This document shows, one piece after another, positions 2,859-62,472 of a stretch of DNA of 64,000 nucleotides. Position 1 is the first letter of the stretch. Every line of letters starts with the position of its first letter. The notes under the pieces are model-generated. The model was given only the letters and a program-made list of their open reading frames with translations, was not told where the DNA came from and ran no database searches. Both the position numbers and the translations under genes were made by a program. The stretch is from Collinsella sp. AM17-1 (GTDB lineage Bacteria > Actinomycetota > Coriobacteriia > Coriobacteriales > Coriobacteriaceae), in NCBI RefSeq assembly GCF_003470665.1, contig NZ_QRJZ01000003.1:99288-163287 (forward strand), read 5' to 3'.

Positions 2859-2867
2859 CGCAACCTC

Positions 2868-6529: not shown

Positions 6530-6550
6530 ATGGAATCCACCTTTTGGAAA

Positions 6551-7594
6551 TTAAGCATTGGTCTGGACGAAGCCGCCATCAAACGCATTGGCCTCGAGCA
6601 CGCGGGCACAGCCGTTAACGACGTTATCGAGCGCCGTGGGGCTGACGTTGACCGAAACACCGGTCTCATCGCGCAGGCGCACGTCGAGACCGCGCAGCAG
6701 CGCGCCGCCACCGGTCAGCAAAATGCCGTAGTACATAAGGTCCGAGGCAAGATCGGGAGGCGTAGCGTCGAGTGCGTCCTTGACGGCCTTGGCCATCTCG
6801 TCGAGCGGCTTGTTGAGTGCGCGACGAATCTCCTCGCTCTCGATGCGCACGGTCTTGGGCAGACCGGTGATCACGTCGCGACCGTTGACCTCGACGTCGA
6901 GCTCATCCTTGAGCGGCACGGCGGAGCCGACCTTGATCTTGATGTCCTCTGCCGTACGCTCGCCGATGGCCAGGTTGTAGGCATCACGAACGTGCGTGAG
7001 GATGGCCTGGTCGAACTCGTCGCCGGCAATACGAATGGACTGCGAGACGACGATGCCGCCCATAGCGATAACGGCAACCTCGGTGGTACCGCCACCGATG
7101 TCGATGACCATGGAGCCGGTGGGTTCCTCGACGGGCAGGTCGGCGCCGATGGCAGCCGCCATGGGCTCTTCGATCAGATAGGCCTGGCGGGCACCGGCCT
7201 GGATCGTGGCCTCAAAGACAGCGCGCTTCTCGACCGACGTGACACCGGAGGGAACGCAGACGACAACACGCGGACGCGGAGTCCACGGATAGCGCTTCTC
7301 GGACGCCTTGTCGATAAAGTAGCGAAGCATGGCCTCGGTAACATCGAAATCGGCGATGACGCCGTCCTTCAGGGGACGAACGGCCACGATGTTGCCGGGC
7401 GTACGGCCGAGCATGCGCTTTGCCTCGATACCGACCGCCAAGATGCGCTCGTCGTTCTTGTCGATGGCGACAACAGAGGGCTCGCGAATGACGATGCCCT
7501 TGCCGCGCACGGAGACAAGCGTATTGGCGGTGCCGAGGTCGATGGCAAGATCGCCCGCATAGCTACCGAAGAACATATCCATCAAAGAAAACAA
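6551..7594 (-). CDS. mreB: Rod shape-determining actin homologue MreB
   Basis: 347 aa. Actin-fold nucleotide motifs are clear: AIDLGTANTLV (phosphate 1), DIGGGTTEVAV (phosphate 2), LTGGGALLRGLD (adenosine). A membrane-associated filament that guides elongation. It is the first gene of the mreBCD-mrdA-rodA string. Two starts are possible: TTG at 7594, with AGGAG five bases upstream, or ATG at 7582, which gives MDMFFGSYAGD. The Shine-Dalgarno spacing favours TTG. Confidence 0.96.
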   Translation of the reverse strand: MFSLMDMFFGSYAGDLAIDLGTANTLVSVRGKGIVIREPSVVAIDKNDERILAVGIEAKRMLGRTPGNIVAVRPLKDGVIADFDVTEAMLRYFIDKASEKRYPWTPRPRVVVCVPSGVTSVEKRAVFEATIQAGARQAYLIEEPMAAAIGADLPVEEPTGSMVIDIGGGTTEVAVIAMGGIVVSQSIRIAGDEFDQAILTHVRDAYNLAIGERTAEDIKIKVGSAVPLKDELDVEVNGRDVITGLPKTVRIESEEIRRALNKPLDEMAKAVKDALDATPPDLASDLMYYGILLTGGGALLRGLDVRLRDETGVSVNVSPTALDNVVNGCARVLEANAFDGGFVQTNA

Positions 7595-10921: not shown

Positions 10922-13645
10922 CTACTTCTTCTTTTTGCTTGCCATCGAAACTTTGATGCCTTGGGCGGACTTGGTTACGCGGGAGCGCTTGGCGCCCGTG
11001 GGCTTCTTTTTCTTGGGCTGGGCCTGGGCCACGCCCTCGAGTGCGCGGGCCTCGGCCTCACGAACGGTGCGAGCTTCGCGGCGCTGCGCCATGTCGGCGG
11101 CGACGCGCTTGGCAAAACGCTCCGCCGTCGAACCCGTCGAGCTCACCTTGCCGCCGCCGCGACCCAGGCGAACACGCACGCCACGGCCAAAGCCGGTGGC
11201 CGCATGACGGCGACGGGGCTTAAGCGAGTCCATCATCGTGGCAAGCTTAAAGAACACCGCACAGGTAAAGACGACGATAGCCGCCAAGATGACAATCTGA
11301 CCCATCGACAAGTTGGCAATCGACAGCAGCTCCGGGAACCCGATAACGCCCGTCAAAATACCAGCGATGACAAACACGAAAAGCACCACGCGCAAGGGCG
11401 TGAGCGGCTGCGAAATGCGCCAGATCAGGCTGACACTCGCCGCGCACGACGTGAGCAGGCACATGGTCGAAAGCGTAAGCTGGCTAAAGCCAAATACGCG
11501 CGCCACAAAGATATCGAGCGCCGCGGCCAAAATGACCGCAATCGACGCCGGCAGCGCACGCTTAAGCACGTTGATCAAGAACGACCCCTTCACGCGGGCG
11601 TTGTTGGGCTCCAGGCCCAGCACAAAGCCCGGCGCGCCGATGCAGAAGAAGTTGATGAGCGTCATCTGAATGGGCTCGAAGGGATACGGCGGCAGCGCGA
11701 TGCACAGCGCCGCCAGGCCCATCGAGAACAGCGTCTTAGTCAGAAAGAGCGCGGCAGAGCGCTGCAGGTTATTGATAGAACGACGGCCCTCGGCCACCAC
11801 AGCGGGCATCGAGGCAAAGTCGTTATCGACGAGCACGATCTCGGCCACATTGCGCGCGGCATCGGAGCCGGCGGCCATCGCCACGGAGCAGTCGGCCTCC
11901 TTGAGCGCCAGAACGTCGTTGACGCCGTCGCCCGTCATGGCCACGGTGTGCCCGCGGCGTTTGAGCGCCTGTACGAGCTCGCGCTTCTGCTGCGGCGTCA
12001 CACGCCCAAAGACGTGATAGCGGTCCACCGCCGCATCGAGCTTGGCAGGCGTATCGAGGGTTGTCGCGTCCACGTAAGCATCCGCCCCGGGCACGCCCAC
12101 CACGCGCGCGATCGACGACACCGTACGCGGGTCGTCGCCGCTGATCACGTTGAGGGTCACGCCCTGCTCGTTAAAATAGCCGATGGTCTCGGCCGCCGAG
12201 GTGCGAATCTCGTCACGGATGGTCACGAAACCCACGGGCTCGGCCTCGCCCACCATATCGCCGTCGGGCGTAAAGCCGTCCACGCGCGCCACAACGAGCA
12301 CGCGGCAAGTGTCGGCGAGCTCGGCGACACGGTTCTCGACCTGAGCAAATGCGCGATCGGAGAGTACAAACTGCGCGGCGCCCATCACATAGGAGCCCTG
12401 CGCAAACGACGCGCCGCTCCACTTTTTGGACGACGAGAACGGAATGACCGACAGCGGCTCGGACACCTCGACCGGACGATCGGCGTAGTAGTTGAGCAGC
12501 GCCTGGCAGGTCTCGTTAGCATCTGCCGAGGTCGCACGTGCCACGTTGGCAAGCGCAAAGTCGAGCACCGTGGTCTCGACGGGGACAGCTGCCTCATCCG
12601 AGTCCGCGCCAAAGCCAACACCTTCAACAGGCAGCGGGTAGGTGCCCTCGACCTCCATGCGGCCCGAGGTAATGGTGCCCGTCTTGTCCAGGCACAGCAC
12701 GTCGACGCGCGCAAGCGTCTCGATGCAGTAGAGCTGCTGTGCCAGCACCTTGCGACGAGCCAGGCGCACCGTGGCAATCGCGAGCACCGACGAGGTCAGC
12801 AGCACCAGGCCCTGCGGAATCATGCCCAGCAGGGCACCCACCGTGGACAGCAGCGCCGAAGAAGGCACACGACCGGCCAGCAGCTCGGAGAAGCACCAGG
12901 AAAGCGCGCTATCGCCCGGGGTTCCCGCGGCATCCCACAGCTCGCTCACACTCGAGGTAAAGAGCGCCAGACCAAGCGGAATCATGATAATACTCGCGAA
13001 CCGCACGATGGCGTTCAGCGCGTTCATGATCTCGGAATTGACCTTTTTGACGTACTTGGCCTCGTTGTTGATCTTTGCCACGTAGTTATCGGCGCCGACA
13101 TGGATCACGCGGGCACGCAACAGGCCCGAGTCGATAAAGCTGCCGCTCATGAGCTCGGAGCCGGGCTGCTTTTTGATGAGATCGCTCTCGCCCGTCAGCA
13201 GGCTCTCGTTGACGAGCGCCTCGCCCGACACTACCACGGCGTCGGCCGGAATCTGGTCACCGCGACCCAGGCGAATGATATCGTCGAGCACGATCTGGTC
13301 CAGGTCGAGCTCCACCTCGGCGCCGTCGCGCACCGCGATGGCCTTCTTAGAGGTGAGCAGCGTAAGCTTGTCGACCATCCGCTCGGAACGCATGGACTGA
13401 ATGACGCCAATTGCCGTGTTCAAGAACACCACGAACAGGAACGTCAGGTTTTTAAACGAACCGGTCAGCAACACCAAAATCGCCAAGACCACGTTGATTA
13501 AGTTAAACAGCGTGCAGAGGTTCTCGATAATGAGCTCGCGGACCGACTTGGTCTTGAGCTCCATGTTGCGGTTGATCTTACCAGCGGCGATGCGCTCCTC
13601 GACCTCGGCGGTCGAGAGTCCGCGCTCGATATCCGTTGCTGCCAT
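10922..13645 (-). CDS. P-type cation-transporting ATPase (HAD-IC)
   Basis: About 907 aa. Actuator motif SLLTGESD, phosphorylation motif DKTGTIT (catalytic Asp), and hinge motif MTGDGVNDVLALKEADCSVA are all present, with about ten membrane helices. The Lys/Arg-rich C-terminal 90 residues (PRRRHAATGF; PKKKKPTGAKRS) are cytoplasmic and unusual. No CPC heavy-metal motif is present, so a Ca2+/Mg2+/K+-type substrate is more likely; it cannot be named. The start chosen is the ATG giving MAATDIERGL; an ATG four codons upstream (13657) is also possible. The open frame to 13810 crosses the terminator and the attachment site and is not coding. Confidence 0.88.
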   Translation of the reverse strand: MAATDIERGLSTAEVEERIAAGKINRNMELKTKSVRELIIENLCTLFNLINVVLAILVLLTGSFKNLTFLFVVFLNTAIGVIQSMRSERMVDKLTLLTSKKAIAVRDGAEVELDLDQIVLDDIIRLGRGDQIPADAVVVSGEALVNESLLTGESDLIKKQPGSELMSGSFIDSGLLRARVIHVGADNYVAKINNEAKYVKKVNSEIMNALNAIVRFASIIMIPLGLALFTSSVSELWDAAGTPGDSALSWCFSELLAGRVPSSALLSTVGALLGMIPQGLVLLTSSVLAIATVRLARRKVLAQQLYCIETLARVDVLCLDKTGTITSGRMEVEGTYPLPVEGVGFGADSDEAAVPVETTVLDFALANVARATSADANETCQALLNYYADRPVEVSEPLSVIPFSSSKKWSGASFAQGSYVMGAAQFVLSDRAFAQVENRVAELADTCRVLVVARVDGFTPDGDMVGEAEPVGFVTIRDEIRTSAAETIGYFNEQGVTLNVISGDDPRTVSSIARVVGVPGADAYVDATTLDTPAKLDAAVDRYHVFGRVTPQQKRELVQALKRRGHTVAMTGDGVNDVLALKEADCSVAMAAGSDAARNVAEIVLVDNDFASMPAVVAEGRRSINNLQRSAALFLTKTLFSMGLAALCIALPPYPFEPIQMTLINFFCIGAPGFVLGLEPNNARVKGSFLINVLKRALPASIAVILAAALDIFVARVFGFSQLTLSTMCLLTSCAASVSLIWRISQPLTPLRVVLFVFVIAGILTGVIGFPELLSIANLSMGQIVILAAIVVFTCAVFFKLATMMDSLKPRRRHAATGFGRGVRVRLGRGGGKVSSTGSTAERFAKRVAADMAQRREARTVREAEARALEGVAQAQPKKKKPTGAKRSRVTKSAQGIKVSMASKKKK

Positions 13646-13679
13646 ACCACGTCCCATCACGTCGCGTCGGTATAAGAAA

Positions 13680-13709
13680 ACCGCCCGGACCATGCGAGGT
13701 TCGGACGGT
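13680..13709 (-). terminator. Intrinsic terminator, probably the original terminator of tRNA-Arg(CCG)
   Basis: A 12-bp stem with one mismatch (ACCGTCCGAACC pairing with GGTCCGGGCGGT) is followed on the minus strand by TTTTCTT. It lies 11 bp beyond the left attachment core. Before integration it would have stood directly after the CCA end of the tRNA now 35 kb away. Confidence 0.75.
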
Positions 13710-13719
13710 CTTACGTTCG

Positions 13720-13729
13720 ATGGTGCCCC
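13720..13729. other. attL, left prophage attachment core
   Basis: ATGGTGCCCC is identical to the sequence at 48814-48823, where it is the acceptor 3' end of tRNA-Arg(CCG) read on the minus strand. Left of it is host DNA (terminator, ATPase); right of it is phage DNA. A short shared core fits a large serine integrase. Confidence 0.7.
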
Positions 13730-13826
13730 GTCTGCATGGATTCTAGAACCGAGATCTGCGCCGTTGGGACCGTCGTGCTGCTCAGGATACCACGTGCGGC
13801 GTAGCAACACCTTTTCTCGAGAAAAA

Positions 13827-13854
13827 AGCCCGCCCGGGATAACCCGAGCGGGCT
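13827..13854 (-). terminator. Terminator of the phage late operon
   Basis: A 12-bp stem with one imperfect pair (AGCCCGCTCGGG / CCCGGGCGGGCT on the minus strand) and a 4-nt loop is followed by a run of six U. It directly follows the last lysis-module gene and precedes attL. Confidence 0.9.
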
Positions 13855-13858
13855 GCGG

Positions 13859-13948
13859 CTAGCGCCGGTTGATGCTCACGATGCAGAGCCCGATTGTCGC
13901 CACGGCGCCGCCGAAGAGCGCGCCGAGCACGAATGCCAACGCGATCAT
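13859..13948 (-). CDS. Small membrane peptide (29 aa) after the endolysin
   Basis: ATG overlaps the endolysin stop (ATGA), so it is translationally coupled. The product is one hydrophobic, Gly/Ala-rich helix ([18 protein letters not shown]) ending in Asn-Arg-Arg. It is the last gene before the late terminator. It may be a second small holin-like peptide; too short for a firm assignment. Confidence 0.55.
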
Positions 13949-15084
13949 CGACGGGTACCGTCAGACACGTAGCATTGGAGACGGTCGAGGGCATAACCGT
14001 AGATGCCGGCATAGTCGTCGCCGCCATAGGTCGTTCCATCGTCGCAGACCTCATCGTGGTAGTCGGAATGGGCGACGTCCTGGCTGCGGTAGTAGACCTG
14101 CTTGTACTCGCCAGACGTGGTGATGTAGAACATCTTCACGCCGTCGATGGTCTGCCCCCAAAGGCCCGCCATGCCGTTGACGGAGTCACCGTAGTTGGCG
14201 GTCTGGACGTAGTCGAGCCAGCCGCTCTCCTTGGTGTGGACTCTATACATGAGGGTGCCAGAATCCACCCAGGCGATGAGCATGTCGTGCGATCCATAGG
14301 GCACGCCGGCGAAGCCCTCGCTGGTGCTGTCGTCGAAGTTGGTCACGACTTCGTTCCAGCCGCCGCCGCGATTGTGTAAAGCGTAGTGGATGTTGACGCT
14401 CTTGCCCGTTGACTTCGGGAAACTCGTGCGAGCAGCAGAAGTAGAGGGCTGGTACGTGCCGCCGTTGCCATCAGTCGGTGCGATAGGGGCGACATAGCCG
14501 CTACCGAGATAAGCCGCCACGGCCTGCTTAAACTCGTACCACGTCTTTCCGTACTGACGAAAATAGCCATTGGGGTCGGTGTGGTCAGAACCGCCCCAGC
14601 GCTGAGCAGCTTCATAGTGAGAAAGCAAACGGGACGTATCCCAACCACGGGAGCGGAGTTCGTCGCCCGCCCACTTGACCGCTTCAGTCCACTGCTTGGC
14701 GAAGTCGCTGGCATTGGTCGCGTGGGCAAGCTCGATACCGACCGTGGCGTAATTTCCATTGCCCACGTGCCAGCACAAGCGGTTCTCGGGCACGGTGTTG
14801 TACACGGTGGAGCCGTCCAGTTCCATCACATGATGAACGGCGTAGGTATCATTGCCGCGCCAATACAGCACATGGTTCCACGCGGACGCGCCGGGGTTCG
14901 CCGTCTCGTGGATAACCAAGTACTGGGCGTTGAGGTAGCCGTGTCCATTGCTCACGTAGGCATCTTGGCTCTGGTAGGCTTCGGCGCTGAGCGGGGCGGC
15001 AAGCGCTGCCGCAAGGGCGAGGACAACGGCAAAGGCGCTACGCAACGGCAGCTTGCGCTTGGGCTCGGCGTTAGTCTCCGTCAT
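13945..15084 (-). CDS. Exported endolysin: N-acetylmuramoyl-L-alanine amidase
   Basis: 379 aa. A basic N-terminus and hydrophobic core (about residues 14-33) ending near AEAYQ form a signal peptide, so export may be Sec-dependent rather than holin-dependent. Residues about 45-170 are an Amidase_2/PGRP domain: [23 protein letters not shown] and SHYEAAQ supply the zinc and catalytic residues. The C-terminal 190 residues contain two similar blocks (GGWNEVV..., SGWLDYVQ...) likely to bind the cell wall. The start overlaps the holin gene by 14 bp. Confidence 0.88.
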
Positions 15085-15301
15085 GCTCGCCTCCCGACTT
15101 GAGTCGCGCGGCGTCCACGGCCTGCTCGGCCGCGGCGTAGATGGCCGCGCTCGCGACCCCGCACACCGTGCCGATGGCGGCGACGGTCTGGTTGTCCGTG
15201 GCGATGCCGGCCACACTGGTGGCGACGGAGCCCAGGAAGGCAGCCGTGCACAGCCAGAACTTGCGGCTCGTCAGCTTCTGGACGATCTTATCCTTGGTCA
15301 T
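15071..15301 (-). CDS. Holin-like protein
   Basis: 76 aa. It begins with a short charged N-terminus (MTKDKIVQKLTSRKFW). Two hydrophobic helices are separated by ATDNQ, and the C-terminus is charged. This is the usual size and topology of phage holins that sit before an amidase gene. It overlaps the endolysin start. Confidence 0.82.
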   Translation of the reverse strand: MTKDKIVQKLTSRKFWLCTAAFLGSVATSVAGIATDNQTVAAIGTVCGVASAAIYAAAEQAVDAARLKSGGEHDGD

Positions 15302-15652: not shown

Positions 15653-15733
15653 GCTCGGCCCTCCTTTCCTCTCGCCTTCCGCGCCATCCTACGGGCGGCG
15701 TGAGATTGGGCTCCGCCGTCCGCTGCAAGCAAT

Positions 15734-15782
15734 AAATCCCAGACGTAACGCGGCGGGCTACCATTCGTTAGGTCTGGGATTT
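15734..15782. repeat. 17-bp inverted repeat between lysis operon and recombinase gene
   Basis: Arms at 15734-15750 and 15766-15782 match at 16 of 17 positions (AAATCCCAGAC at the outer edge), with a 15-nt loop. On the plus strand the right arm runs into TTTT, and on the minus strand the other arm runs into TTATT. It could therefore terminate the tail operon (minus) and block read-through from the opposite side. It ends 14 bp before the recombinase start. Confidence 0.75.
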
Positions 15783-15795
15783 TTAAGAGATTGGA

Positions 15796-16671
15796 TTGTT
15801 CAAAATGCTGTTTTCCGATGCCGCAACCGAGTACATGGCCGACAAGGGCAAGCGTCTCCGCGCCACCACATTGGAAGGCTACCGAAGCGCCATCCGCTGC
15901 CACCTGATGCCGCAGTGGGGCGGTCGCGAGATAGAGACGATCAGCTTTGAGGAAGTGCAGGATTGGGTGGACGGGTTCGACCTCCCCGGCGCGGCGGAAA
16001 AGGCCTACAAGACCTTCCGCCAGATATACCGCTGGGTATTGCGCCGCCACCAGCTGCGAATCTGGGACGTGACGCAAGGTGTGGAGCTGCCGAAGAAGCC
16101 AACCGTTCGTCGGCCCACACTCACGGCAGAGCAGGAGCGCGTGACGCTCAAAGCTATCGTGGGGCAACCATTCGAGGCCGCTGTGCTCCTGGGTGCCGCG
16201 CTCGGTCTGCGCCGATGTGAGGCGTGCGCCGTGCGCATCGAGGATGTGGACTGGCGTAGCGGCTGGGTTCACGTCCGACGTGGCCTGCACGTGGTAGGCG
16301 GCGAGGTCGTGGAGACGGGATGCAAGACCAAGCTGTCTGATCGCAAGCTGAAACTGCCGCGATTCGCGCTCGAGCGCCTGCGCGCTATCCGTGGGACACG
16401 TAGGTCTGGGCGGCTTTGCCTGCTCGACCCCAACGCCGTGGCTAGGCGGTTCCGCGCGTTCTGTAAGCGATTCGGCCTGCCGCATGTGCCGATGACATGC
16501 CTGCGCCATAGCTGGGCTACGATCTCGCTGGAGCACGGTGCGGCTATCGAGGACATTGCCGTGGCGCTGGGACACAGCACGGTCAACACTGCCATGAGCC
16601 ACTACCTGCAGTCATTTCGAACGGTCGTAGCAAGGGCGAGCGATTCATACACGGCGGCAATGGAATGGTGA
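15796..16671 (+). CDS. Tyrosine recombinase, putative shufflon invertase
   Basis: 291 aa from TTG 15796 (AAGAGA five bases upstream); ATG 15805 is an alternative. Residues about 5-90 form a SAM-like core-binding domain; the rest is a phage integrase catalytic domain. Arg139 (GLRRCEA), Arg237 (TCLRH), His260 (LGH) and nucleophile Tyr270 (AMSHY) can be assigned. The first His of the HxxR box is Thr234. It is the only plus-strand gene in the late region. Its TGA overlaps the first of five TTCCGTATCC sites that flank alternative tail-tip cassettes. This position, far from the att sites, and the separate serine integrase at the other end argue for a DNA inversion role like Rci of R64-type shufflons. 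Confidence 0.85.
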   Translation: MFKMLFSDAATEYMADKGKRLRATTLEGYRSAIRCHLMPQWGGREIETISFEEVQDWVDGFDLPGAAEKAYKTFRQIYRWVLRRHQLRIWDVTQGVELPKKPTVRRPTLTAEQERVTLKAIVGQPFEAAVLLGAALGLRRCEACAVRIEDVDWRSGWVHVRRGLHVVGGEVVETGCKTKLSDRKLKLPRFALERLRAIRGTRRSGRLCLLDPNAVARRFRAFCKRFGLPHVPMTCLRHSWATISLEHGAAIEDIAVALGHSTVNTAMSHYLQSFRTVVARASDSYTAAMEW

Positions 16672-16957
16672 TTCCGTATCCCTGCTTTCCCATGACATGT
16701 CAAGAGATAGCGGTACGGTCAGCATCGCATTCAGCTCTGCCACCCGAGCGGTCGCGTTAGTCATGATGGACTGCAACGGCAAGGGCAAGGCGTGCCTGTA
16801 TTTCGTCTCGGGAATATCGAAATCCGCGATATTGCTCGCAGGGAACGGCAACGAGCCGTCATGGAGCGACGATGGGGTAACCCTTACCCTCAATTCGACC
16901 GATTGGAACAACGTTACCGTTATTTCTGCTGGAGAGCCGACCATCTCATTTGCTTAG
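16670..16957 (+). CDS. Silent tail-tip C-terminal cassette E (headless)
   Basis: An open frame of 95 codons begins at recombination site 1 with Asp-Ser-Val-Ser, the same residues that end the constant N-terminus at 17719-17730, and stops with TAG at 16955. It has no own start signal; the internal ATG at 16697 lacks a ribosome binding site. Inversion between sites 1 and 5 would fuse it in frame to the constant part. The encoded domain is beta-rich (GTVSIAFSSATRAVALVMMD; EPSWSDDGVTLTLNSTDW). Confidence 0.85.
   Translation, partial: DSVSLLSHDMSRDSGTVSIAFSSATRAVALVMMDCNGKGKACLYFVSGISKSAILLAGNGNEPSWSDDGVTLTLNSTDWNNVTVISAGEPTISFA
16672..16681 (+). repeat. Shufflon site 1 (TTCCGTATCC)
   Basis: Plus-oriented copy. 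It overlaps the recombinase stop codon (TGA 16669-16671 directly precedes it) and opens cassette E. Extended match: ATTCCGTATCCC. Confidence 0.85.
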
Positions 16958-17239
16958 TTTTCCGTATCCCGGCTTTGCATGAGCGATGCCCTGCGCAAGC
17001 TGGAAGGCAACGACTTCAACACCATAGGCAACTGCTTTCAGGCGATCTACCAAACAACATCGTGGACAGCAGAGCAGCACGGACCTGTCGGCCTGAATAC
17101 CTATGGCTTCCTGCTCTCGGCGAGGGGCGGCGATTCCAACTTGCAGATATTCATCGACAACACGGGGAAGGTGGCGTTTCGCGTGCGCTTCAGCGGGAAC
17201 GTCAACTGGCCCTCATGGAATGTGCTCAAGGCAGGCTAG
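16958..17239 (+). CDS. Silent tail-tip C-terminal cassette D (headless)
   Basis: 93 codons plus TAG, starting Phe-Ser-Val-Ser at site 2 directly after the stop of cassette E. No start signal of its own; the internal ATG 16979 is not preceded by a ribosome binding site. It contains NTIGNCFQAIYQ, GLNTYGFLLSARG and VNWPSWNVLKAG, typical of beta-rich tail-fibre tips. Its TAG shares the tetranucleotide CTAG with the stop of the opposing cassette C. Confidence 0.85.
   Translation, partial: FSVSRLCMSDALRKLEGNDFNTIGNCFQAIYQTTSWTAEQHGPVGLNTYGFLLSARGGDSNLQIFIDNTGKVAFRVRFSGNVNWPSWNVLKAG
16960..16969 (+). repeat. Shufflon site 2 (TTCCGTATCC)
   Basis: Plus-oriented copy opening cassette D, preceded by T rather than A at the outer position (TTTCCGTATCCC). 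Confidence 0.85.
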
Positions 17240-17388
17240 GAGTCCCAACTGCCGATATTGACCGCAACAGGTTCTTTTCCCGGACTAGACACAACCGCCT
17301 GAAAATAATTTGTGTTTCCCGATGTGTAAACCTGAAATTTGATACTCAAAACAGACCATCCGTCGACAGTGATTAGGGATACGGAATG
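17236..17388 (-). CDS. Silent tail-tip C-terminal cassette C (headless)
   Basis: 50 codons plus TAG, starting His-Ser-Val-Ser at site 3 on the minus strand. It encodes LITVDGWSVLSIKFQVYTSG and ends NIGSWDS. It lies in the same orientation as the expressed gene, two cassettes downstream, and is separated from it by stop codons, so it is not translated in the present arrangement. Confidence 0.83.
   Translation of the reverse strand, partial: HSVSLITVDGWSVLSIKFQVYTSGNTNYFQAVVSSPGKEPVAVNIGSWDS
17377..17386 (-). repeat. Shufflon site 3 (TTCCGTATCC, minus)
   Basis: Minus-oriented copy opening cassette C; extended match ATTCCGTATCCC, three bases after the TAA of cassette B. Confidence 0.85.
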
Positions 17389-17391
17389 CTC

Positions 17392-17526
17392 TTACACGTT
17401 TGCCTTGATTTTTACGGCCAGTACGTAGTTGACGCGGACGCAAAGGTAGTTCTCCCCATCGAAGTTTTCCCAACTGAGCTGAATTACCTCTGCGCCACCT
17501 TTTGTGACCATCGAGGATACGGAATG
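17392..17526 (-). CDS. Silent tail-tip C-terminal cassette B (headless)
   Basis: 44 codons plus TAA, starting His-Ser-Val-Ser at site 4 on the minus strand, immediately after the stop of the expressed tail-tip gene. It encodes MVTKGGAEVIQLSWENFDGE and ends VKIKANV. It is the shortest cassette. Confidence 0.83.
   Translation of the reverse strand, partial: HSVSSMVTKGGAEVIQLSWENFDGENYLCVRVNYVLAVKIKANV
17515..17524 (-). repeat. Shufflon site 4 (TTCCGTATCC, minus)
   Basis: Minus-oriented copy opening cassette B; ATTCCGTATCC followed by T, so the last base of the 12-bp consensus differs. Confidence 0.85.
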
Positions 17527-17868
17527 CTACTTAGTCCACAGTGTTTTGACATTGCCTGTATCCCCGTACTGCAATTTGATGCCTTCTGCTTTCGAGATGG
17601 TGACGTAAAGCGATTTGCCGTCCTTTAAACAGAATTGCACTTGGATAGAAGTGTCCTCGCCCGACCCCCACGAGCCGTAGGTAACGGAGACAACGTCTCC
17701 CCAGAAGCTCGGCACTCGGGATACGGAATCCCCGAGGGCATTGGTCTGCTTCGCGCAGTCGCTGATCCCCTTCTCGATTCGGTTCAGCTCCGCGGCGGTG
17801 ACGGGAGTGTTACCGGAGACCTTGTCCTTCCAAGTCTTCATTGCGAATACGATTTTTTCGAATGCCAT
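17527..17868 (-). CDS. Variable tail-tip protein: constant N-terminus joined to expressed cassette A
   Basis: 113 aa. Residues 1-46 are the constant part (KTWKDKVSGNTPVTAAELNR, then ISDCAKQTNALG), a short helical domain seen at the N-terminus of many siphovirus tail fibres. Residues 47-50, Asp-Ser-Val-Ser, are encoded by site 5. The remaining 63 residues are cassette A (RVPSFWGDVVSVTYGSWG, ending VKTLWTK). AAAGGAC precedes the ATG. It is the last gene of the tail operon, directly after the BppU-like gene. A receptor-binding role is inferred from position and from the switching arrangement. Confidence 0.8.
   Translation of the reverse strand: MAFEKIVFAMKTWKDKVSGNTPVTAAELNRIEKGISDCAKQTNALGDSVSRVPSFWGDVVSVTYGSWGSGEDTSIQVQFCLKDGKSLYVTISKAEGIKLQYGDTGNVKTLWTK
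17719..17728 (-). repeat. Shufflon site 5 (TTCCGTATCC, minus), junction of constant and variable parts
   Basis: Minus-oriented copy inside the expressed gene, coding Ser-Val-Ser after Asp. It is inverted relative to sites 1 and 2 and direct relative to sites 3 and 4. Confidence 0.87.
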
Positions 17869-17883
17869 GATGTTGTCCTTTCG

Positions 17884-18654
17884 TTAGACAGTGAACGGTG
17901 TCCAAGCGCCTTTTTCGTCGGGGAACGTTGTATCTGATGGGAATGTCGTCGAGTCGGGCCACAGCGCCGTGCCGGGCAGGCCAGCGTCCCAACGCTTGAA
18001 CGACGTAATCTTGTGCGTGCTCTCGTTGGTCTGCATCCAGAGCATCCCGTCCACGCGCTTGTCGCGGGCGGGCTCCGCGGCCTGCATGTAGTAGGGCTTG
18101 GTCGCGGATGCCGCGGCGTTCGCCTGCTTGGCTGCGGCGGTTGCCGCGCTCGCGGCCCTGTTGGCAGCGTCGGCATTGCCCTCGGCGGACGATGCCGCCG
18201 ACTCGGCCCTCTTCGTCGCGGAGGTCACGGCGGCGTTTAGCGAGGCCCACTCGCGCTGGAGCGCGTCGAGCTCGTTGTCGTAGTCCTCGGACTGGCCGCC
18301 GCTGCCGTCGACGCTGCCGAGGATGACCAGCGCGAAGTCCTCGGTCGTCTCGGAGCCGGTGCCGCAGAACTCGAAGTACGCGAGGCGGCACCTCCCCGCC
18401 CCGTTGACCGCCTGCGGCGGGAGCGTGACGCTCACCGTGCCGTTGCCCACGGTCGCCGAGCAGCGCGCCCACGTGCCGTCGGCGTGGAGCACGCACAGGC
18501 GCGCGAGCTGGCACGTCGGGGTGTACGTCGCGCCGTCCACGGTGAGCGACGCCGTTATCTTCTGGGTCTGCGTCTCGCCCCTGCGCACGGTGACGCGCTG
18601 CGGGACGGTTCCCGGGCGCTTGCGCATGTCGAGCGCTATCGCGTGGTTGATCAT
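17884..18654 (-). CDS. BppU-like baseplate upper protein / tail fibre
   Basis: 256 aa. The start is the ATG overlapping the upstream stop (ATGA); the longer frame to 18792 is not supported. The N-terminal 120 residues resemble the BppU N-terminal domain that docks receptor-binding proteins on siphovirus baseplates (RRGETQTQKITASLTVDGAT; GRCRLAYFEF). An Ala-rich coiled coil follows (about 130-190), then a C-terminal domain with GMLWMQTNESTHKI, LWPDSTTFPSDTTFPDE. It is 15 bp upstream of the variable tail-tip gene, whose product may attach to it. Confidence 0.75.
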   Translation of the reverse strand: MINHAIALDMRKRPGTVPQRVTVRRGETQTQKITASLTVDGATYTPTCQLARLCVLHADGTWARCSATVGNGTVSVTLPPQAVNGAGRCRLAYFEFCGTGSETTEDFALVILGSVDGSGGQSEDYDNELDALQREWASLNAAVTSATKRAESAASSAEGNADAANRAASAATAAAKQANAAASATKPYYMQAAEPARDKRVDGMLWMQTNESTHKITSFKRWDAGLPGTALWPDSTTFPSDTTFPDEKGAWTPFTV

Positions 18655-19037
18655 TCCTTGGCCTCCAGCGCCTTGAGCGCGTCGAGCGCGGCCCTGAAGG
18701 CCTCGACCGGGTCGACGGACTCGGTTCCCTCCCCCGTCTCGTCGGCCGTGGCCGGCTGCGGGTCGACGATGGCCGACAGCGCGTCGAAGCACGCCACGGT
18801 TGCCGCCGTGCGCCTGTCGACGTAGGACGTGGTGACGATCTCGTACGCCTGCCTCTCTTGCTGCGGTTCCTCGACCTCGCTGGCGTCGACGACCTCGCGC
18901 TTTCCGTCGTCGTATACGGCGATGAAGATGATGCCGGCGGCGGCCGCCCGGGCGATGAGCTCGCTGTCGAATTCGGTGAGGTAGCTCTCGACGTTCCCGA
19001 TGGGGTCGTGCGCCATGTAATGCGTGATCTTTGCCAT
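18651..19037 (-). CDS. Phage tail-associated protein, unknown function
   Basis: 128 aa starting MAKITHYMAHDPIG, with AGGAGGAAAC just upstream of the ATG. The first 60 residues contain a short beta-rich region (IIFIAVYDDGKREVVDASE); the C-terminal half is Ala/Glu-rich and helical, ending FRAALDALKALEAKE. It is eight bp after Tal and overlaps the BppU-like start by four bp. Not recognised. Confidence 0.65.
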   Translation of the reverse strand: MAKITHYMAHDPIGNVESYLTEFDSELIARAAAAGIIFIAVYDDGKREVVDASEVEEPQQERQAYEIVTTSYVDRRTAATVACFDALSAIVDPQPATADETGEGTESVDPVEAFRAALDALKALEAKE

Positions 19038-19045: not shown

Positions 19046-21862
19046 CTAGAGACTGCAAGACGTGCAGAAGCCGTTGATGAAGTGGATGTTGCCGGTCGTG
19101 TAGTAGAACCTCAGCCTTCCGTCGTCGAGTTCTTTGAAGTCGCTCATGTACCTGATGCTCTTCTCCCCGGTCAGGCCTGTCGTCGTCGTCTCGCTGGTGT
19201 CGCTGGACGCCTTGACCGAGAGCGACGGGGAGCTGATGCGGACCGCCCCGTCCGCCTGGAATTGCAGGCCGTAGAGCGTCGTGTTGGTCGGGATGTCGCG
19301 CACCGACGTCGAGAAGTCGATATAGCCGACTCTCGACGGGGACGAGGCGCTTCCTTTCTTTCGGTAGCCCTCCATCTGGCCGTAGCCGTTCAGCATCGTG
19401 TAGCACGAGCTGTTTCCGCATGTGAAGGTTCCGCTGGCCGTGATGTTCTTCGCCGTCATGTAGTTGGTCGTCAGCACGCCTTCCTTGAGGTTCCACGTGT
19501 TCCGGCCCTTGGCGTCGGCGATGGTCCCCGTGGCGACGTAGCTCGCGTTGAGGTAGACCCTGTTGTTGCTCATGTAGAGGCCCTGCTCAGCGCCGCCGTT
19601 GGTCAGGCGGTCGAAGATGGCCTTCTGGTCCATCTGCTCGTCGTAGGCGCTCAGGATGCCGTCGGCATAGTCTTTAGCGTTCTCCTGCTCGATGGCGTGA
19701 CGCGCCCCGGTCGCGGCATCGGCGTAGTCCTTGACCGCGCTCGAGTAGGCTCCGTAGGCCGCGTCGTACTCGTACATGACGGCCTTGAGCTCCTCGGCGG
19801 TCTTGCACTTGAGCACCTTATCGACCTTGTCGGCGTAGGCGCCGTACGTGCCGCCCTCGTCGGTCGTGCCGAAGGCCTTGGTGTAGCGGGGGCCGAGGAC
19901 GGACGAGAGGAACTGGGCGCTGAGCGCCTTGTTCGACTTGAGCGCGTTGAACTGCGAGGTCATCTCCTCGCGCTCCTTGTCGACGTCCTGCTTGGCCTTC
20001 TTCACGGCTGCGGCCTCCGCCTCGGTCACCACACCGTCTTTGGCTAGGTCGTTGACCGTGGTGTCGAGGTCCCTAAGGGACTGGTTGAGGTCGTAGGCGC
20101 TCTGATTCGCTTTGTTCAGTGCAGCCACGAGGACAGGCGAGGAATGATTGACCGAGCCGTCCCCGTAGGTGATGCGGTCCATCTCCCAGATGAAATAACC
20201 GTTCTCCCACTCGGGGATGTCTTCCGACCATCCCAGCTCGGGATTTTGCATGTTCAGCGGCGGCACTGTGTCGGACTGATTCTTCGCGTAGAGTTTCACG
20301 GTCGACTTGACCACGGCGTTCGTCGTGGCGATGTCCTTGCCGTCGAGCTTGGCGCCGGGGCCTAGATGGACCTCGCTCTCGTCGAGGTTCCAGTAGTTCT
20401 TGCCGCTCCTGTCCTGGATGGTGCCGGCCTTGATCAGGTCGCCGAGCATCGTGCCGAAGCAGATGAACTCGGCGAAGAAGCCCTTTCCCGTGCCGAACGT
20501 GCGCCAGTCCCACGAGCCGTCGGCCTTGCAGCCGCCGGCGATGCGGAAGCCCTGGGAGCACAGCTGCATGGCCATGCCGTCGCCGGTCGTCGAGCGGCCG
20601 TCCGCGTCGAGGGGCACGGAGCCGAATATCAGGCCGCGCTCGAAGCTCGTGTGGACGTAGCTGTTGCCCGCGAGGTTGAACTGCACATTCATGCTGTCCA
20701 TGACCTGCTGGAGGTACGACGGCGGCGTGGATGCCGCCACATCCCAGCTGGACGAGCGCTTGGACAGGCTCGACAGCTTCTGCTGCTGCGCCAGCCACAT
20801 GTCCGCGATTGTCTCGGTCACGTTGCCGAGCGTCACGCGGACGGTGCCGCCGAGCTGGTCGGTGACTAGCTTGGTCACACGACCCTCGCAGCGCAGCGCC
20901 GGGCTGAATGCCGTGTCGACGATCTGCACGTCGTCGCCGACCGCCACGCCCTCCCAGTCGCGCCCGAACTGCATGAGGTCGACGGCGTCGGCCTCGTAGG
21001 TCATTCCCGGCTCCTTGCGGGAGTCGAGGTATGCGCGGGTCTCGGCGAGCAGCGTCGCCGCGTCCTCGCAATTTGAATTTTCATATTGTCCGAACACGTG
21101 CGCGCGCCCGCCCCTGCCGTCGGGTCGCCCGTACAGCCCGAGCGCGGTCGCATCCTCCACGTAGTTCTTGCCGTTGTTGATGTCGCCGAACGTCAGCTTG
21201 CGCCCGTAGCCGCCCGTGTCGGTCTCGATTCCCTTGCCGTAGCCGTAGCAGGCGGTGATCGCCCCGTAGTGCTCGGTGCGGGAGACGGATGCCAGGTCCT
21301 TGGTGTAGGTGAACCGGCGGTGGCCGCCCTTCGCGCCTCGATGCGAGCGGATGCCCACCCTGCGAGAGGTCACCTTTCCGCCGGATACGGTGATTTCAGT
21401 CTCAAGCTCGCCGCCGCATTCCAAGATTGACTGGAGCGCCTCGCGCGCCGAGGTGTGGTAGAAGGTCAGGCCCTTGTCGACGGTGCCGGTCCGGTCGACC
21501 GTTCCGGCGGTCCAGCGGGTCGGCCCAAGGCAGACATTCAGCGCCTGCAAGAAGCCGTAGCCGTAGGGGCGCTTGTCCTCGATATAGTCGCCGTACGTCT
21601 CGCAGATTGAGTTGATAGCCGTGTCCGTGTAGACCGTATCGCCTCCGGCGTGGAGGCCCTTGGGGTCTTGGCAGACGTGCTCGTGGACCTTGCCGAGGCG
21701 GTCGGCCCAGACGAGGCGGTAGCCCTGCTTGAGCGCGAAGGTCGTGACGATGTCCACGCTGTCCTCGCCGTTGAGCTCGTCGGTATGGGTGAGGGAGAGC
21801 AGCTCCTCGGGGCCGATTGTCGATACGTAGGCGTCCTGCCACGTGTATACGTCAATTCGCAC
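19046..21862 (-). CDS. Tail-associated protein (Tal, prophage tail endopeptidase family)
   Basis: 938 aa, start GTG immediately after the Dit stop (TAG then GTG). Residues 1-380 are the conserved phage minor structural protein/Tal domain that forms the baseplate hub (LLSLTHTDELNGEDSVDIVT; GLTFYHTSAREALQSILE; WEGVAVGDDVQIVD). The middle carries repeated GTIQDRSGKNYWNLDESEV and GTIADAKGRNTWNLKEGV blocks and a long helical coiled coil (about 590-780). The C-terminus (from about 830) is beta-rich and ends in a Cys-containing tail. Alternative: a fused tail fibre; either way it is the tail tip. Confidence 0.83.
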   Translation of the reverse strand: MRIDVYTWQDAYVSTIGPEELLSLTHTDELNGEDSVDIVTTFALKQGYRLVWADRLGKVHEHVCQDPKGLHAGGDTVYTDTAINSICETYGDYIEDKRPYGYGFLQALNVCLGPTRWTAGTVDRTGTVDKGLTFYHTSAREALQSILECGGELETEITVSGGKVTSRRVGIRSHRGAKGGHRRFTYTKDLASVSRTEHYGAITACYGYGKGIETDTGGYGRKLTFGDINNGKNYVEDATALGLYGRPDGRGGRAHVFGQYENSNCEDAATLLAETRAYLDSRKEPGMTYEADAVDLMQFGRDWEGVAVGDDVQIVDTAFSPALRCEGRVTKLVTDQLGGTVRVTLGNVTETIADMWLAQQQKLSSLSKRSSSWDVAASTPPSYLQQVMDSMNVQFNLAGNSYVHTSFERGLIFGSVPLDADGRSTTGDGMAMQLCSQGFRIAGGCKADGSWDWRTFGTGKGFFAEFICFGTMLGDLIKAGTIQDRSGKNYWNLDESEVHLGPGAKLDGKDIATTNAVVKSTVKLYAKNQSDTVPPLNMQNPELGWSEDIPEWENGYFIWEMDRITYGDGSVNHSSPVLVAALNKANQSAYDLNQSLRDLDTTVNDLAKDGVVTEAEAAAVKKAKQDVDKEREEMTSQFNALKSNKALSAQFLSSVLGPRYTKAFGTTDEGGTYGAYADKVDKVLKCKTAEELKAVMYEYDAAYGAYSSAVKDYADAATGARHAIEQENAKDYADGILSAYDEQMDQKAIFDRLTNGGAEQGLYMSNNRVYLNASYVATGTIADAKGRNTWNLKEGVLTTNYMTAKNITASGTFTCGNSSCYTMLNGYGQMEGYRKKGSASSPSRVGYIDFSTSVRDIPTNTTLYGLQFQADGAVRISSPSLSVKASSDTSETTTTGLTGEKSIRYMSDFKELDDGRLRFYYTTGNIHFINGFCTSCSL

Positions 21863-22561
21863 CTAGAGCCACCTCTCCTCCCATTCGAGCGTCGCGGTGC
21901 CGCCGCTCGTCTTGATCTGCTGCACGCCGTCGAGCGAGAAGAAGTCGCTCGCGACGGTCACGGGCCAGTCCGCGCCGTTGACCGTGCAGCGCTCCGCGCG
22001 CATGTCCAGCACGACGGTCTGCGCGCCGGTGAACGACGCCTCGACACGGACGAAGCGCCCGGTCGAGACATTAGTGAATGTCCAGCTCGAGCCTGCCGGG
22101 GGCCTGCACGTGACCGTAGGGTAGGCCCTGTAGTTGCCCCCGGCGGCGACGGCGCGCTGGGATGCCGACACCTGCTCGGAGCGTCGCTGCCCGTAGGCGG
22201 CGGGGTCTGCACAGTAGAACCCGAGCGTGAGATTCGGCATGTGCGCGTTGCGCCCCTGCTCCGCCCCTCCCCTGTAGCGCGCGAGCATGTAGCGCTCGGG
22301 AGCGTCGTCGAGCACGAGGGCCTTCTCGCCGCCGGACAGCGCCGAGGCGAGCACGGCCCTTGCCTCGGCGACCTCGTCGAGGGAGCCGCCGACGATGTTG
22401 CAGTCGACCGCTATCTCGACGGGCTCGAGGCCCGTGGCGCGGATATGCGAGCCGTCCATGCCGGGGACCTCGGTCTCATCGAGCCGCACCTTGGGGACAA
22501 TCGGTCTCGTGACCTTGGTCACCAGCAGGTACGGCGTGAGGTCGATTCCGCCGAATATCAT
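21863..22561 (-). CDS. Distal tail protein (Dit)
   Basis: 232 aa. Start ATG overlaps the tape-measure stop (ATGA). The N-terminal half is the siphovirus Dit/tail-component fold (LVTKVTRPIVPKVRLDETEV, PGMDGSHIRATGLEPVEIAV, LTLGFYCADPAAYG); the C-terminal half is a galectin-like beta domain. It forms the ring joining tail tube and tip. Its place between tape measure and Tal is canonical. Confidence 0.85.
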   Translation of the reverse strand: MIFGGIDLTPYLLVTKVTRPIVPKVRLDETEVPGMDGSHIRATGLEPVEIAVDCNIVGGSLDEVAEARAVLASALSGGEKALVLDDAPERYMLARYRGGAEQGRNAHMPNLTLGFYCADPAAYGQRRSEQVSASQRAVAAGGNYRAYPTVTCRPPAGSSWTFTNVSTGRFVRVEASFTGAQTVVLDMRAERCTVNGADWPVTVASDFFSLDGVQQIKTSGGTATLEWEERWL

Positions 22562-25029
22562 GCGAACCCCCTTGCGGCGAGCGTGTGCCTGCCGCGCATC
22601 GCGATGGCGGAGGAGACGCGCTCCGAGTCGATGTACAGGTTTCCGTCCTTGTCCCGGATCTGCTCGAGGATGGACAGGATGCCGGCGAGGGCGTCGTCGG
22701 AATCCTCCTCGGGACGCGCAGGCGTGTAGACCGCGGACGGCGCGACGGTCAGGCCCGTCGAGAGCATCCCCTGCGCGGTGTCCATGGCGCCGCTGATTGC
22801 GGAGACCACGGTGCCGGTGCCGGAGCCGATGCCCTGCGCCCAGCCCTGCATGAGGGCCTTGCCCGAGAAGGTCGTGTAGCCGTGCCCGGAGAAGGGGCCG
22901 ACCTTTGCCGGCGAGAACGGGAAGAAGGAGCGGATTCTGGAGACTGCGCCGGAGACCGCCGAGGTCACCGAGCCGATAGCGGACATGATGCCGTCCTTCA
23001 GGCCGTTGAGTATCGACTTGCCGGAGTTGAAGAGCCAGTTGCGCGCACCCGAGAAGAACCCGGTGATCTTGCCCTTGATGCTCGTGACGGTCCTGTAGAC
23101 GGAGTTGATTCCGTTGGACGCCGCGCTCTTGATGCCCTCCCAGATGGACGAGCAGGCGCTCTTGATGCTCCCCCACATGCTCGACCACGTGGAGCTGATG
23201 CTGTTGAGCACGGAGCTGATCACGCCGCTGACCTGATTTATCGCCGAGTTGACGGCAAACTTGATGCGTCCCCAGACCACCTCGGCGAAATCGCGGACGG
23301 TGTCCCACACGCTTGACCAAATCGAGCTGATTCCATCGAGCGTGGACGTTATCACGGACTCGACGACCCCGATGGCCGCTCGCACGGCGAACTCAATCTG
23401 CGACCAGACGAGCTCGGCTACCGACTTGATGGTGTTCCAGACCGTATCCCAGTCGCCACTTATCGCGGCGGTGACCGTGGAGATGACTGTCTGCACCACG
23501 GCCATCGCGACCTGGACGGCAGTGGAGATTGCATCCATCACGCCAGTCAGGACAGCGGAGATCACCGGCCAGACCGCGTGCCAGACGGCGGAGATGATGC
23601 CCATCGCCACCTGAATCGCGCCCTGGATGAGCGGCATCGCCGCCAGCACGGCGGACAGCACGGACTGCACGGCGGGCATGGCGATGGCGACGAGCTGCGA
23701 GACGGTCGTCATCACGTCCGCGATGACACCGACCAGGAAGCCGATGACCGGCGACAGCGCCTGCACGATGCCGAGCACCACCTGTATGCCGGTGGAGAGC
23801 ACCGGCAGCACGGCCTGCGCGATGTTGAGCAGCGCCGTGCCGATTGGCGCGATGAGCGGCGCGATGAACCCGATTGCCGCCTTGATGCCGTTGCCGACGG
23901 ACGTGGCCACGCCCAGGATGGCCTGAAGCGCCGAGCAGATCTGCGAGGAGTCCACCTTCGGCAGCTTGATACCGATGCCGGCGAGCGCGCCGACGGCGAT
24001 GTTCCACGCCGTGGCGAGCGCCTCGGACACGATGGGCGTGAGCACCGACGCGATGCCGGAGAGCGCCGCGGGGAGCGCCTTGATGATGCCCTGCCCGATC
24101 TGTGCGACGCGCGGCGCGATGTTCTTGGCGACCGCGCCGACGGACGTGAGCAGCTGCTCGGTGAGCTGCGAGAAGTCCACGTCGTCTCGGCCCAGACCGG
24201 TGAGGAAGTTCTCCCATGATGCCTTGGCCATGCCGATGGAGCCGGAGATGGTCGTCGCGGCCTCCTTGGAGGTCGTGCCGGTGATGCCCATCTCGGACTG
24301 CACGGTGTGGATGGCCTCGACCACGTCGGCGTAGCTGTCGATGGTGAGGTCGGCGGTCTTGCCCTGCGCCGCGCGCAGCTTGTTGGCGTCCGCGATGAGT
24401 CGCTCCATCTCGGACTTCGTGCCGCCGTAGCCCAGCTTCAGGTTGTCCAGCATCGTATAGTTCTGCTTGGCAAAACCTTGGTAGGCGTTCTGGACGTCGG
24501 CCATGTCCGAGCCCATCTTGTTGACGTTGTCCGCCATGTCGCCCATCGCCGTGTTGGCGGACTCGGCGGCCTTCGCCACGTCGCCGCCGCACGAGCTCAC
24601 GAGCGATGCGGCGAAGCTGGTCGCCTGGGTCATGTATTGGTTTGCGCTCATGCCGCACGTCTTGTACGCTTCCGCGGCGTATCCCTGCAGTTTGCCGGAC
24701 GCGGAGCCGAAGAGCGTATCGACGCCGCCGACCAGCTGCTCGTAGTCGGCGTATGCGGATACCGCAGCGCCGCCGATTGCGGTCACCGCCGTGGTGAGCG
24801 CGCCCATGCCAGCCGCGGCGACGGTGCCCACGCCCCTGGCGACGGTGCCGAGCCCGCTCAGCAGCCCGCCCGAGCGCTTGACGCCGCCGTCCACGCCGGA
24901 GGTCATCGAGTCGCCGAATGTCTTTCCGGCCTTGGAGCCCGTGTCGCCGAACTCGGAGCAGACCGCGCCGGCGAAGCCCTTCATGGACGGCATGAGCGTG
25001 ATGCATGCCGAGCCTACGCTAGTCGCCAT
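22558..25029 (-). CDS. Tape measure protein
   Basis: 823 aa. The N-terminal 300 residues carry the TP901-type tape-measure domain (YEQLVGGVDTLFGSASGKLQ; QNAYQGFAKQNYTMLDNLKL). A long hydrophobic, helical middle (about 300-520) has repeats such as IWSSVWDTVRDFAEVVW and TWSSMWGSIKSACSSIWEG. Sets tail length and is ejected during infection. Its start overlaps the end of the frameshifted chaperone by 11 bp. At 823 aa it predicts a tail of roughly 120 nm by the usual 1.5 angstrom per residue rule. Confidence 0.93.
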   Translation of the reverse strand: MATSVGSACITLMPSMKGFAGAVCSEFGDTGSKAGKTFGDSMTSGVDGGVKRSGGLLSGLGTVARGVGTVAAAGMGALTTAVTAIGGAAVSAYADYEQLVGGVDTLFGSASGKLQGYAAEAYKTCGMSANQYMTQATSFAASLVSSCGGDVAKAAESANTAMGDMADNVNKMGSDMADVQNAYQGFAKQNYTMLDNLKLGYGGTKSEMERLIADANKLRAAQGKTADLTIDSYADVVEAIHTVQSEMGITGTTSKEAATTISGSIGMAKASWENFLTGLGRDDVDFSQLTEQLLTSVGAVAKNIAPRVAQIGQGIIKALPAALSGIASVLTPIVSEALATAWNIAVGALAGIGIKLPKVDSSQICSALQAILGVATSVGNGIKAAIGFIAPLIAPIGTALLNIAQAVLPVLSTGIQVVLGIVQALSPVIGFLVGVIADVMTTVSQLVAIAMPAVQSVLSAVLAAMPLIQGAIQVAMGIISAVWHAVWPVISAVLTGVMDAISTAVQVAMAVVQTVISTVTAAISGDWDTVWNTIKSVAELVWSQIEFAVRAAIGVVESVITSTLDGISSIWSSVWDTVRDFAEVVWGRIKFAVNSAINQVSGVISSVLNSISSTWSSMWGSIKSACSSIWEGIKSAASNGINSVYRTVTSIKGKITGFFSGARNWLFNSGKSILNGLKDGIMSAIGSVTSAVSGAVSRIRSFFPFSPAKVGPFSGHGYTTFSGKALMQGWAQGIGSGTGTVVSAISGAMDTAQGMLSTGLTVAPSAVYTPARPEEDSDDALAGILSILEQIRDKDGNLYIDSERVSSAIAMRGRHTLAARGFA

Positions 25030-47320: not shown

Positions 47321-47325
47321 AAAGA

Positions 47326-47365
47326 GCCCCGTCGGCAGCGCTGGTACCGCTTTAGCCGACGGGGC
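47326..47365. terminator. 11-bp perfect hairpin between lysogeny gene and integrase
   Basis: GCCCCGTCGGC and GCCGACGGGGC with an 18-nt loop. On the minus strand it is followed by TCTTTTTATAT, a good terminator for transcripts coming from the integrase side; on the plus strand it is a hairpin without a U-run in the leader before the integrase. Confidence 0.7.
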
Positions 47366-47419
47366 ATCCAACCGCCCAAGCATCTTTGCAAACTCACAAC
47401 TTGAGGGGGCTTCTACATT

Positions 47420-48880: not shown

Positions 48881-48891
48881 GCTAATAGGGC
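48815..48891 (-). tRNA. tRNA-Arg (anticodon CCG)
   Basis: 77 nt including encoded CCA. Acceptor GCCCTAT pairs with ATGGGGC; anticodon arm TCTGC-CTCCGGA-GCAGA gives anticodon CCG; T arm GTTGG-TTCGAAT-CCAAC. Its 3' end is the prophage integration site; the tRNA itself stays intact. Confidence 0.95.
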
Positions 48892-62450: not shown

Positions 62451-62472
62451 ACTCTCGAAAAGTTAATAGCGG

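Follow-up and report, generated by a model that had tools for sequence, protein, structure and literature searches.

The window analysed here, a stretch of 64,000 nucleotides from Collinsella sp. AM17-1 (NCBI RefSeq assembly GCF_003470665.1, contig NZ_QRJZ01000003.1, positions 99,288 to 163,287 of the forward strand), contains a prophage in which a tyrosine recombinase gene, an array of short repeated sites and a short gene of the tail region lie side by side at 15796-17868 (coordinates are those of the window). A window scan finds five exact copies of TTCCGTATCC within 16672-17728: two on the + strand, starting at 16672 and 16960, and three on the - strand, at 17377-17386, 17515-17524 and 17719-17728. 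All five sites are read as TCC-GTA-TCC (Ser-Val-Ser), and each opens its own stop-terminated cassette. The features of the locus are as follows, with P numbers denoting homologues of the expressed protein.

15796-16671, + strand: tyrosine recombinase (Rin-like invertase), with Phage_int_SAM_3 and Phage_integrase matches
16672-16681, + strand: site 1 (rix-like), exact TTCCGTATCC, frame Ser-Val-Ser, opens cassette E
16673-16957, + strand: silent cassette E, 94 codons and stop; relative in P0203
16960-16969, + strand: site 2, exact TTCCGTATCC, opens cassette D
16961-17239, + strand: silent cassette D, 92 codons and stop; distant relative in P0213
17236-17385, - strand: silent cassette C, 49 codons and stop, tail to tail with D; relatives in P0182 and P0220
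17377-17386, - strand: site 3, exact TTCCGTATCC, opens cassette C
17392-17523, - strand: silent cassette B, 43 codons and stop; no relative among 120 listed proteins
17515-17524, - strand: site 4, exact TTCCGTATCC with T at base 11, opens cassette B
17527-17727, - strand: expressed cassette A, 66 codons and stop, a predicted beta domain (reading frame and model)
17719-17728, - strand: site 5, exact TTCCGTATCC, within the expressed gene at a predicted loose link
17728-17868, - strand: constant part (Rc) of the expressed gene, 47 codons, two predicted helices (reading frame and model)

Counted from the Ser codon to the stop, the cassettes measure 94 (E), 92 (D), 49 (C), 43 (B) and 66 (A) codons. 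A first-pass annotation of this DNA had correctly given each cassette its own stop, with a length range of 44-95 codons, against 43-94 in our count. Its count of five exact 10-mers, with their positions, their Ser-Val-Ser frame and their separate cassettes, was reproduced in full. Its claim that a single cassette has a start codon also holds: only the site at 17719 continues into an ATG-started open reading frame (ORF), so that cassette A follows 47 constant codons. The ATG lies at 17868, with AAAGGA seven bases upstream. The longer form TTCCGTATCCC is complete at four of the five sites, the site of cassette B having T instead of C at base 11.

The clustering of TTCCGTATCC is not a product of chance. 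Of the 52,445 distinct strand-merged 10-mers of the window, no other has five non-overlapping copies within 1.1 kb; the five copies of CCGAAACCCC in such a span include overlapping ones. A sixth exact TTCCGTATCC lies inside the prophage at 41631-41640 (+), 24 kb from the array. This copy is presumably unused, since its pairing with an array site would lead to an inversion or deletion of about 24 kb.

The recombinase ORF (15796-16671) is uninterrupted and encodes 291 amino acids. It comprises an N-terminal SAM-like domain (PF14659) and a catalytic domain (PF00589), with no further Pfam domain and no arm-binding domain. ATG 15805 is a likelier start than TTG 15796, because the Met at 15805 is invariant in eight aligned sequences (that of the window and seven relatives). 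Arg139, Arg237, His260 and Tyr270 are invariant in the same alignment; residues of this set have catalytic roles in tyrosine recombinases generally. The gene does lie directly beside the cluster, as first annotated, with a TGA stop (16669-16671) that abuts the first 10-mer instead of overlapping it. Among the compared loci (L numbers), recombinases 92-96% identical to that of the window occur in L013, L014, L016 and L017; another relative is found in an uncultured Collinsella record, and a closer one (85%) in Slackia. In more distant relatives, the box II His position holds Thr, Glu (as in L023), Lys, Arg or others, with arrays present or not. We therefore rejected the loss of this His as a mark of shufflon enzymes, since array-less relatives lack it too.

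Arrays of this kind can be compared in two natural orders. The natural REARRANGEMENT comparison used the viral contigs L015 and L016, which we take from their IMG identifiers to be metagenome-derived, over 3.8 kb from the recombinase onward. Their recombinase is 93% identical to that of the window. The two contigs agree at 100% in both flanks, of which the one at the recombinase spans 883 nt and the one at the constant gene 703 nt. Between the flanks, a 975-nt block matches at 100% in the same orientation, while a 1,277-nt block is inverted at 99.9%. Each contig carries seven sites, and all seven cassettes are shared at 100% protein identity but in different orders. Two inversions between oppositely oriented sites would convert one order into the other, and a different cassette is expressed in each. 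No cassette has been lost, as would be expected if only inverted sites recombine.

The same comparison locates the exchange within the site. The 5' flank stays with the position and the 3' flank stays with the cassette, including at a cassette with A for C at base 10. Because the flanks divide in this way, exchange would take place between base -1 and base 9. On the evidence of these contigs, such arrays occur in different orders in nature. The first-pass annotation had read the locus as a shufflon and had proposed comparing related genomes for other arrangements; these orders, two inversions apart, bear out that reading, as do public proteins that contain the constant part and relatives of three of the four silent cassettes.

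A search with the expressed protein returned 177 homologues; our analysis covers the 120 that were listed, and the counts that follow refer to these. They come from related phages in other samples and not from the strain of the window. P0203 joins the identical 47-residue constant part to a match of silent cassette E (91/94), and P0182 joins it to a relative of cassette C (43/49). A closer relative of C (47/49) stands in P0220 on a constant part that matches at 42/47 residues, and P0213 carries the identical constant part with a relative of cassette D (57/92). Cassette A follows a short peptide in P0173-P0176 (55-62/66). In P0173 this peptide is clearly similar to the frame that immediately precedes site 1 at the recombinase end, and in P0174-P0176 less so; from this resemblance, cassette A would occupy the silent recombinase-side slot in these four.

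The constant part is joined to many unlike C-termini. The anchor motif L-G/S-D-S-V-x is present in 111 of the 120 proteins, among which single linkage at E 1e-3 separates 24 C-terminal families; the nine proteins lacking the motif were set aside. The exact 47 residues of the window occur in 29 proteins from 18 of these families. Among family representatives, the share of the commonest residue is 0.92 at position 50 and drops to 0.42 one position later, at 51; the motif itself demands residues 45-49, so that conservation there is partly due to selection. Other searches added little. The 50-residue constant part had no match in 43 same-genus genomes at E 1e-10, a result made uninformative by the lack of a known-positive genome. 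Phage records gave no DNA match to 15700-18700. A viral contig search with P0001 returned two loci, both on contigs already in the set, and a profile search returned the same eight loci.

We searched for clustered repeats beside recombinase homologues, within 1.5 kb on each side for most genome loci. The window and 17 loci together hold 88 sites, not all independent, since L015 and L016 share their cassettes. A fixed-frame check yielded 86 closed cassettes of 43-133 codons and one that runs off the locus end; the remaining site, L017 2207, opens only six codons and was taken as a chance match. Besides TTCCGTATCC, the site types include ATCCGTATCC (Slackia isoflavoniconvertens), TTCCTTGTCC, TTCGCTGTCC and TTCCGTAACC (Bifidobacterium phage PMBT6 and phage ctl617). 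All are translated as Ser-Val-Ser, Ser-Leu-Ser or Ser-Val-Thr, apart from Ser-Val-Gly at two of four L023 sites and Ser-Val-Phe at one L014 site. The reading frame is thus unchanged through four variant site types. In L023, from a same-genus genome, the array at 2418-3515 mixes TTCCGTATCC and TTCCGTAGGC, as if it held two site types.

A site profile was built from 46 sites of 10 loci chosen for the TTCCGTAT core, with L016 unused and L017 2207 dropped. Each of bases 9 to 11 is C in all but one of the 46 sites, and conservation stops sharply at base 12. On the 5' side, conservation is found mostly at -4 to -1, where the preceding stop codon often falls.

The arrays are associated with one part of the tree of recombinases. 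Of the 18 tree relatives whose recombinase is at least 36% identical to that of the window, 16 have an array 3' of the gene, and of the nine below 36% none has one within the stretch searched (mostly 1.5 kb). One of the two others (L039, 40%) lies on a contig that ends 473 bases away and cannot be judged. The array label changes four times on the tree, compared with 8.9 times in shuffles; because of long-branch warnings and these four changes, a single origin of the arrays is not established. The tree left out L012 (a copy of the window), L015 (which has the L016 recombinase), L018 (an L009 copy), L022 (on the L010 contig), L029 (a fragment), and L020 and L021 (on the same contigs as L012 and L014). 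Labels were set by hand: L013 was counted with two sites, since its contig ends, whereas repeats present three times without that pattern of sites, at L038 and L011, and an 8-mer present four times at L037 were treated as chance and left uncounted.

The predicted structure of the expressed protein (mean pLDDT, the predicted local distance difference test score, of 75) has helices at residues 2-17 and 25-48 and a confident beta domain at 59-112. Residues 48-53 form a poorly ordered link, with pLDDT under 50. Site 5 falls at the end of the helix, at the start of this predicted loose link. Since this link runs between a helical anchor and a beta domain, exchange at the site would preserve the frame while substituting the outer domain in full. 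The weaker model of P0203 (mean 66) shows similar helices with another beta domain. Eight of ten cassettes scanned against Pfam had no match. Cassette E has a weak DUF2303 match, below cut-off, and the L019 cassette at 6290-6691 gave the only match of the ten above cut-off, to baseplate Gp10_C (1e-15).

We propose, with high confidence, that the locus is a Rin-type shufflon: the recombinase would invert DNA between opposed TTCCGTATCC sites and so swap the C-terminus of a protein predicted to be the receptor-binding protein of the tail tip. From the present order, one inversion would bring D or E to expression, and two would bring B or C. Inversion alone would reach 48 arrangements in our model, so that up to five variants, as first suggested, are attainable in principle. 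The enzyme that does the inverting is presumably the adjacent recombinase, presumably also in this strain. Through its variable end the protein would bind the host cell, and switching would change host range.

The setting of the array is that of a phage tail module. On the - strand, the genes run in the order tape measure, Dit, Tal-like endopeptidase, BppU-like baseplate protein, variable gene and array; the recombinase (+), small genes and then an amidase endolysin follow. The neighbouring and distal features are listed below.

13945-15216, - strand: endolysin (amidase) ORF beyond the recombinase, from domain and family matches
17884-18792, - strand: BppU-type baseplate ORF, N-terminal domain at residues 49-181 (PF10651, 4e-7); these are ORF limits, the start not being fixed
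19046-21862, - strand: prophage tail endopeptidase or Tal-like tail-tip gene (PF06605)
21863-23320, - strand: distal tail protein (Dit) ORF, with SPP1_Dit and Sipho_tail matches
47420-48880, + strand: large serine recombinase, probable prophage integrase; its end overlaps the tRNA-Arg at 48815-48891

The variable gene starts 15 bases past the stop of the BppU-like ORF. The Dit gene probably starts near 22585, because its matches are confined to residues 246-485 of the ORF. From its family and place, the large serine recombinase is likely to be the prophage integrase, which would leave the tyrosine recombinase free for another task. No direct repeat of at least 12 nt was found between 13601-14000 and 47301-49100, and the att site is therefore not defined. 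A virus record of 35,022 bases (L012) starts at window position 13859 and is identical at all 8,810 bases compared. The phage host is probably Collinsella rather than a bifidobacterium, judged by sequence: at least two of the variable-protein homologues among the matches listed are named for this genus (P0177, P0209), and the uncultured Collinsella record mentioned above holds a relative of the recombinase.

Several observations weigh against a working tail-tip shufflon in this prophage. L015 and L016 both come from a single related phage and not from the phage of the window, and L012, perhaps from the same isolate, has the same cassette order as the window. The box II His is replaced by Thr234 in all eight aligned recombinases. 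The recombinase has few relatives: at E 1e-20 they occur in 17 of 148 related genomes, of which one belongs to the genus of the nearest genome. A recombinase at 46% identity (L027) lacks an array within the 1.5 kb examined. The P0213 relative of cassette D is a distant one, and cassette B has no relative among the listed homologues. As for the protein itself, a fold search of PDB and BFVD gave no match at E 0.001 or better, and in PHROGs the constant part matches a head fibre family best (9e-9, residues 8-43), ahead of a minor tail family (2e-4).

Some of these points would fit a system that is genuine in the family as a whole and yet locked, or active only very rarely, in this strain, the array being a snapshot. 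The single order found for the phage of the window and the Thr in box II both favour this explanation. However, the recombinase is open and closely related to those of L013, L014, L016 and L017, and the L016 phage is known in two orders. All five sites are exact, and the box II Thr is shared by the recombinase of that same L016 phage. We consider a locked array unlikely.

Alternatively, the variable protein may decorate the virion elsewhere, for instance as a head fibre, in which case switching would leave tail recognition unaltered. The head fibre match and the absence of a fold match speak for such a role. Against it, the gene directly follows the BppU-like ORF, downstream of the tape-measure, Dit and Tal genes, and a cassette of the related L019 array bears baseplate Gp10_C. 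The Rin arrays described in published accounts also sit on receptor-binding protein genes. Because the fold search gave no match, we argue for the receptor-binding role from gene order and the published systems. On this basis, the variable protein is likely to be a tail-tip receptor-binding protein, and we give a decoration elsewhere on the virion only a minor chance.

A third explanation holds that the diversity arises solely from ordinary recombination and phage exchange, with the repeats as homology footholds. It gains from a cassette that is 91% identical between L013 (5496) and L019 (5077), even though their recombinases are 96% and 68% identical to that of the window, a pattern pointing to exchange between phages. 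It is very unlikely as the whole explanation: the L015/L016 rearrangement is exact at the sites and retains every cassette, and arrays track one part of the recombinase tree. In addition, repeats of eleven bases are too short for efficient homologous recombination. Least credible of all is that the enzyme beside the array is the prophage integrase, with the five sites there by coincidence; it is also unlikely that, as the first-pass annotation had allowed, its homologues act only at att sites. The enzyme matches integrase families and its relatives are annotated as integrases, but a separate large serine recombinase adjoins the tRNA-Arg at the other prophage end, and the tyrosine recombinase separates the tail genes from the lysis genes and occurs together with an array in 16 of 18 relatives.

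The shufflon proposed here has close counterparts. In prophages of Bifidobacterium breve and B. longum, the Rin shufflon consists of a rin tyrosine recombinase without an arm domain, Rv cassettes and a constant Rc part of 168 residues; its site is TTCCCTAACCC, and inversions were seen in reads and between prophage and virion sequences, according to that report (PMC6109161). The layout is shared with the window, and TTCCCTAACCC and TTCCGTATCCC agree at 9 of 11 positions, whereas the constant part of the window has only 47 residues and the host group differs. The recombinase is 38% identical to that of Bifidobacterium phage PMBT6, the only Bifidobacterium comparison made, which has a similar array with site TTCCGTAACC. 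In Eggerthella lenta, clade 1 prophages are described as carrying a tyrosine recombinase, tandem Rv cassettes, an Rc gene and the 8-bp ttccgtat (PMC8778435). This host belongs to the Coriobacteriia, like that of the window, and ttccgtat is identical to the core of the window site. Compared by description, the E. lenta system has a much larger Rc and a tyrosine integrase, in contrast to the 47 residues and likely serine integrase found here.

The name Rin, given in the first-pass annotation, matches both of these sources. As in Rin systems, the recombinase has core-binding and catalytic domains, silent cassettes and one constant gene lie beside it, and a site of the type TTCCxTAxCCC precedes every cassette. 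The recombinase also appears distinct from the prophage integrase, as inferred above.

The R64/IncI shufflon, whose logic had also been invoked, acts on the plasmid pilus gene pilV through Rci and 19-20-bp sfx sites (GTGCCAATCCGGT), as described in two accounts (PMC5430464, PMC11852207). The mechanism stands as a likeness, with one constant part, silent C-termini, short asymmetric sites and inversion by a tyrosine recombinase. Kinship with Rci is not detectable: TTCCGTATCC differs from GTGCCAATCCGGT, and a search of plasmids with the recombinase at E 1e-5 matched 18 records, none of them enterobacterial in the tally. By sequence comparison, Rci is thus an analogue by mechanism without detectable kinship. 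The phage systems Min, Gin and Cin produce tail-fibre variants by inversion with serine recombinases, as summarised in PMC6109161, unlike the tyrosine recombinase beside the array of the window.

Among the papers listed by our literature search, none reported a Collinsella shufflon, weak evidence of absence because subscription papers were mostly outside its reach. New here are a member of the system in a probable Collinsella phage, with a very short constant part, and the 24 unlike C-terminal families that this part carries among the listed homologues, with the frame kept across site variants. The finding extends the probable tail-tip shufflons, a type of switch already known in two other groups of gut bacteria, to phages whose host is probably Collinsella, and the loci compared provide evidence of natural movement of such arrays. 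The shared frame (mostly Ser-Val/Leu-Ser/Thr) and the 24 families of outer domains on one short anchor offer a compact model of how a phage might vary its receptor-binding end.

Rin arrays might also form an open cassette pool of gut actinobacterial phages, with the recombinase, besides flipping the resident cassettes, also capturing new ones from other phages at the 11-base sites in an integron-like manner. We offer this tentatively, as possible but doubtful. Compatible with it are the 24 families on a nearly invariant anchor of 47 residues, the cassette shared by L013 and L019, the conserved frame and the difference from L014, in which no cassette shared with the window was detected despite a constant part 98% identical in DNA. 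If such a pool exists, one anchor with a fixed Ser-Val-Ser docking point takes up unlike outer domains.

Elsewhere in the window, ARAGORN called a tRNA-Pyl (anticodon cta) at 62418-62506 (-); it overlaps an RmlD/epimerase ORF (62473-63927) and is possibly a false call.

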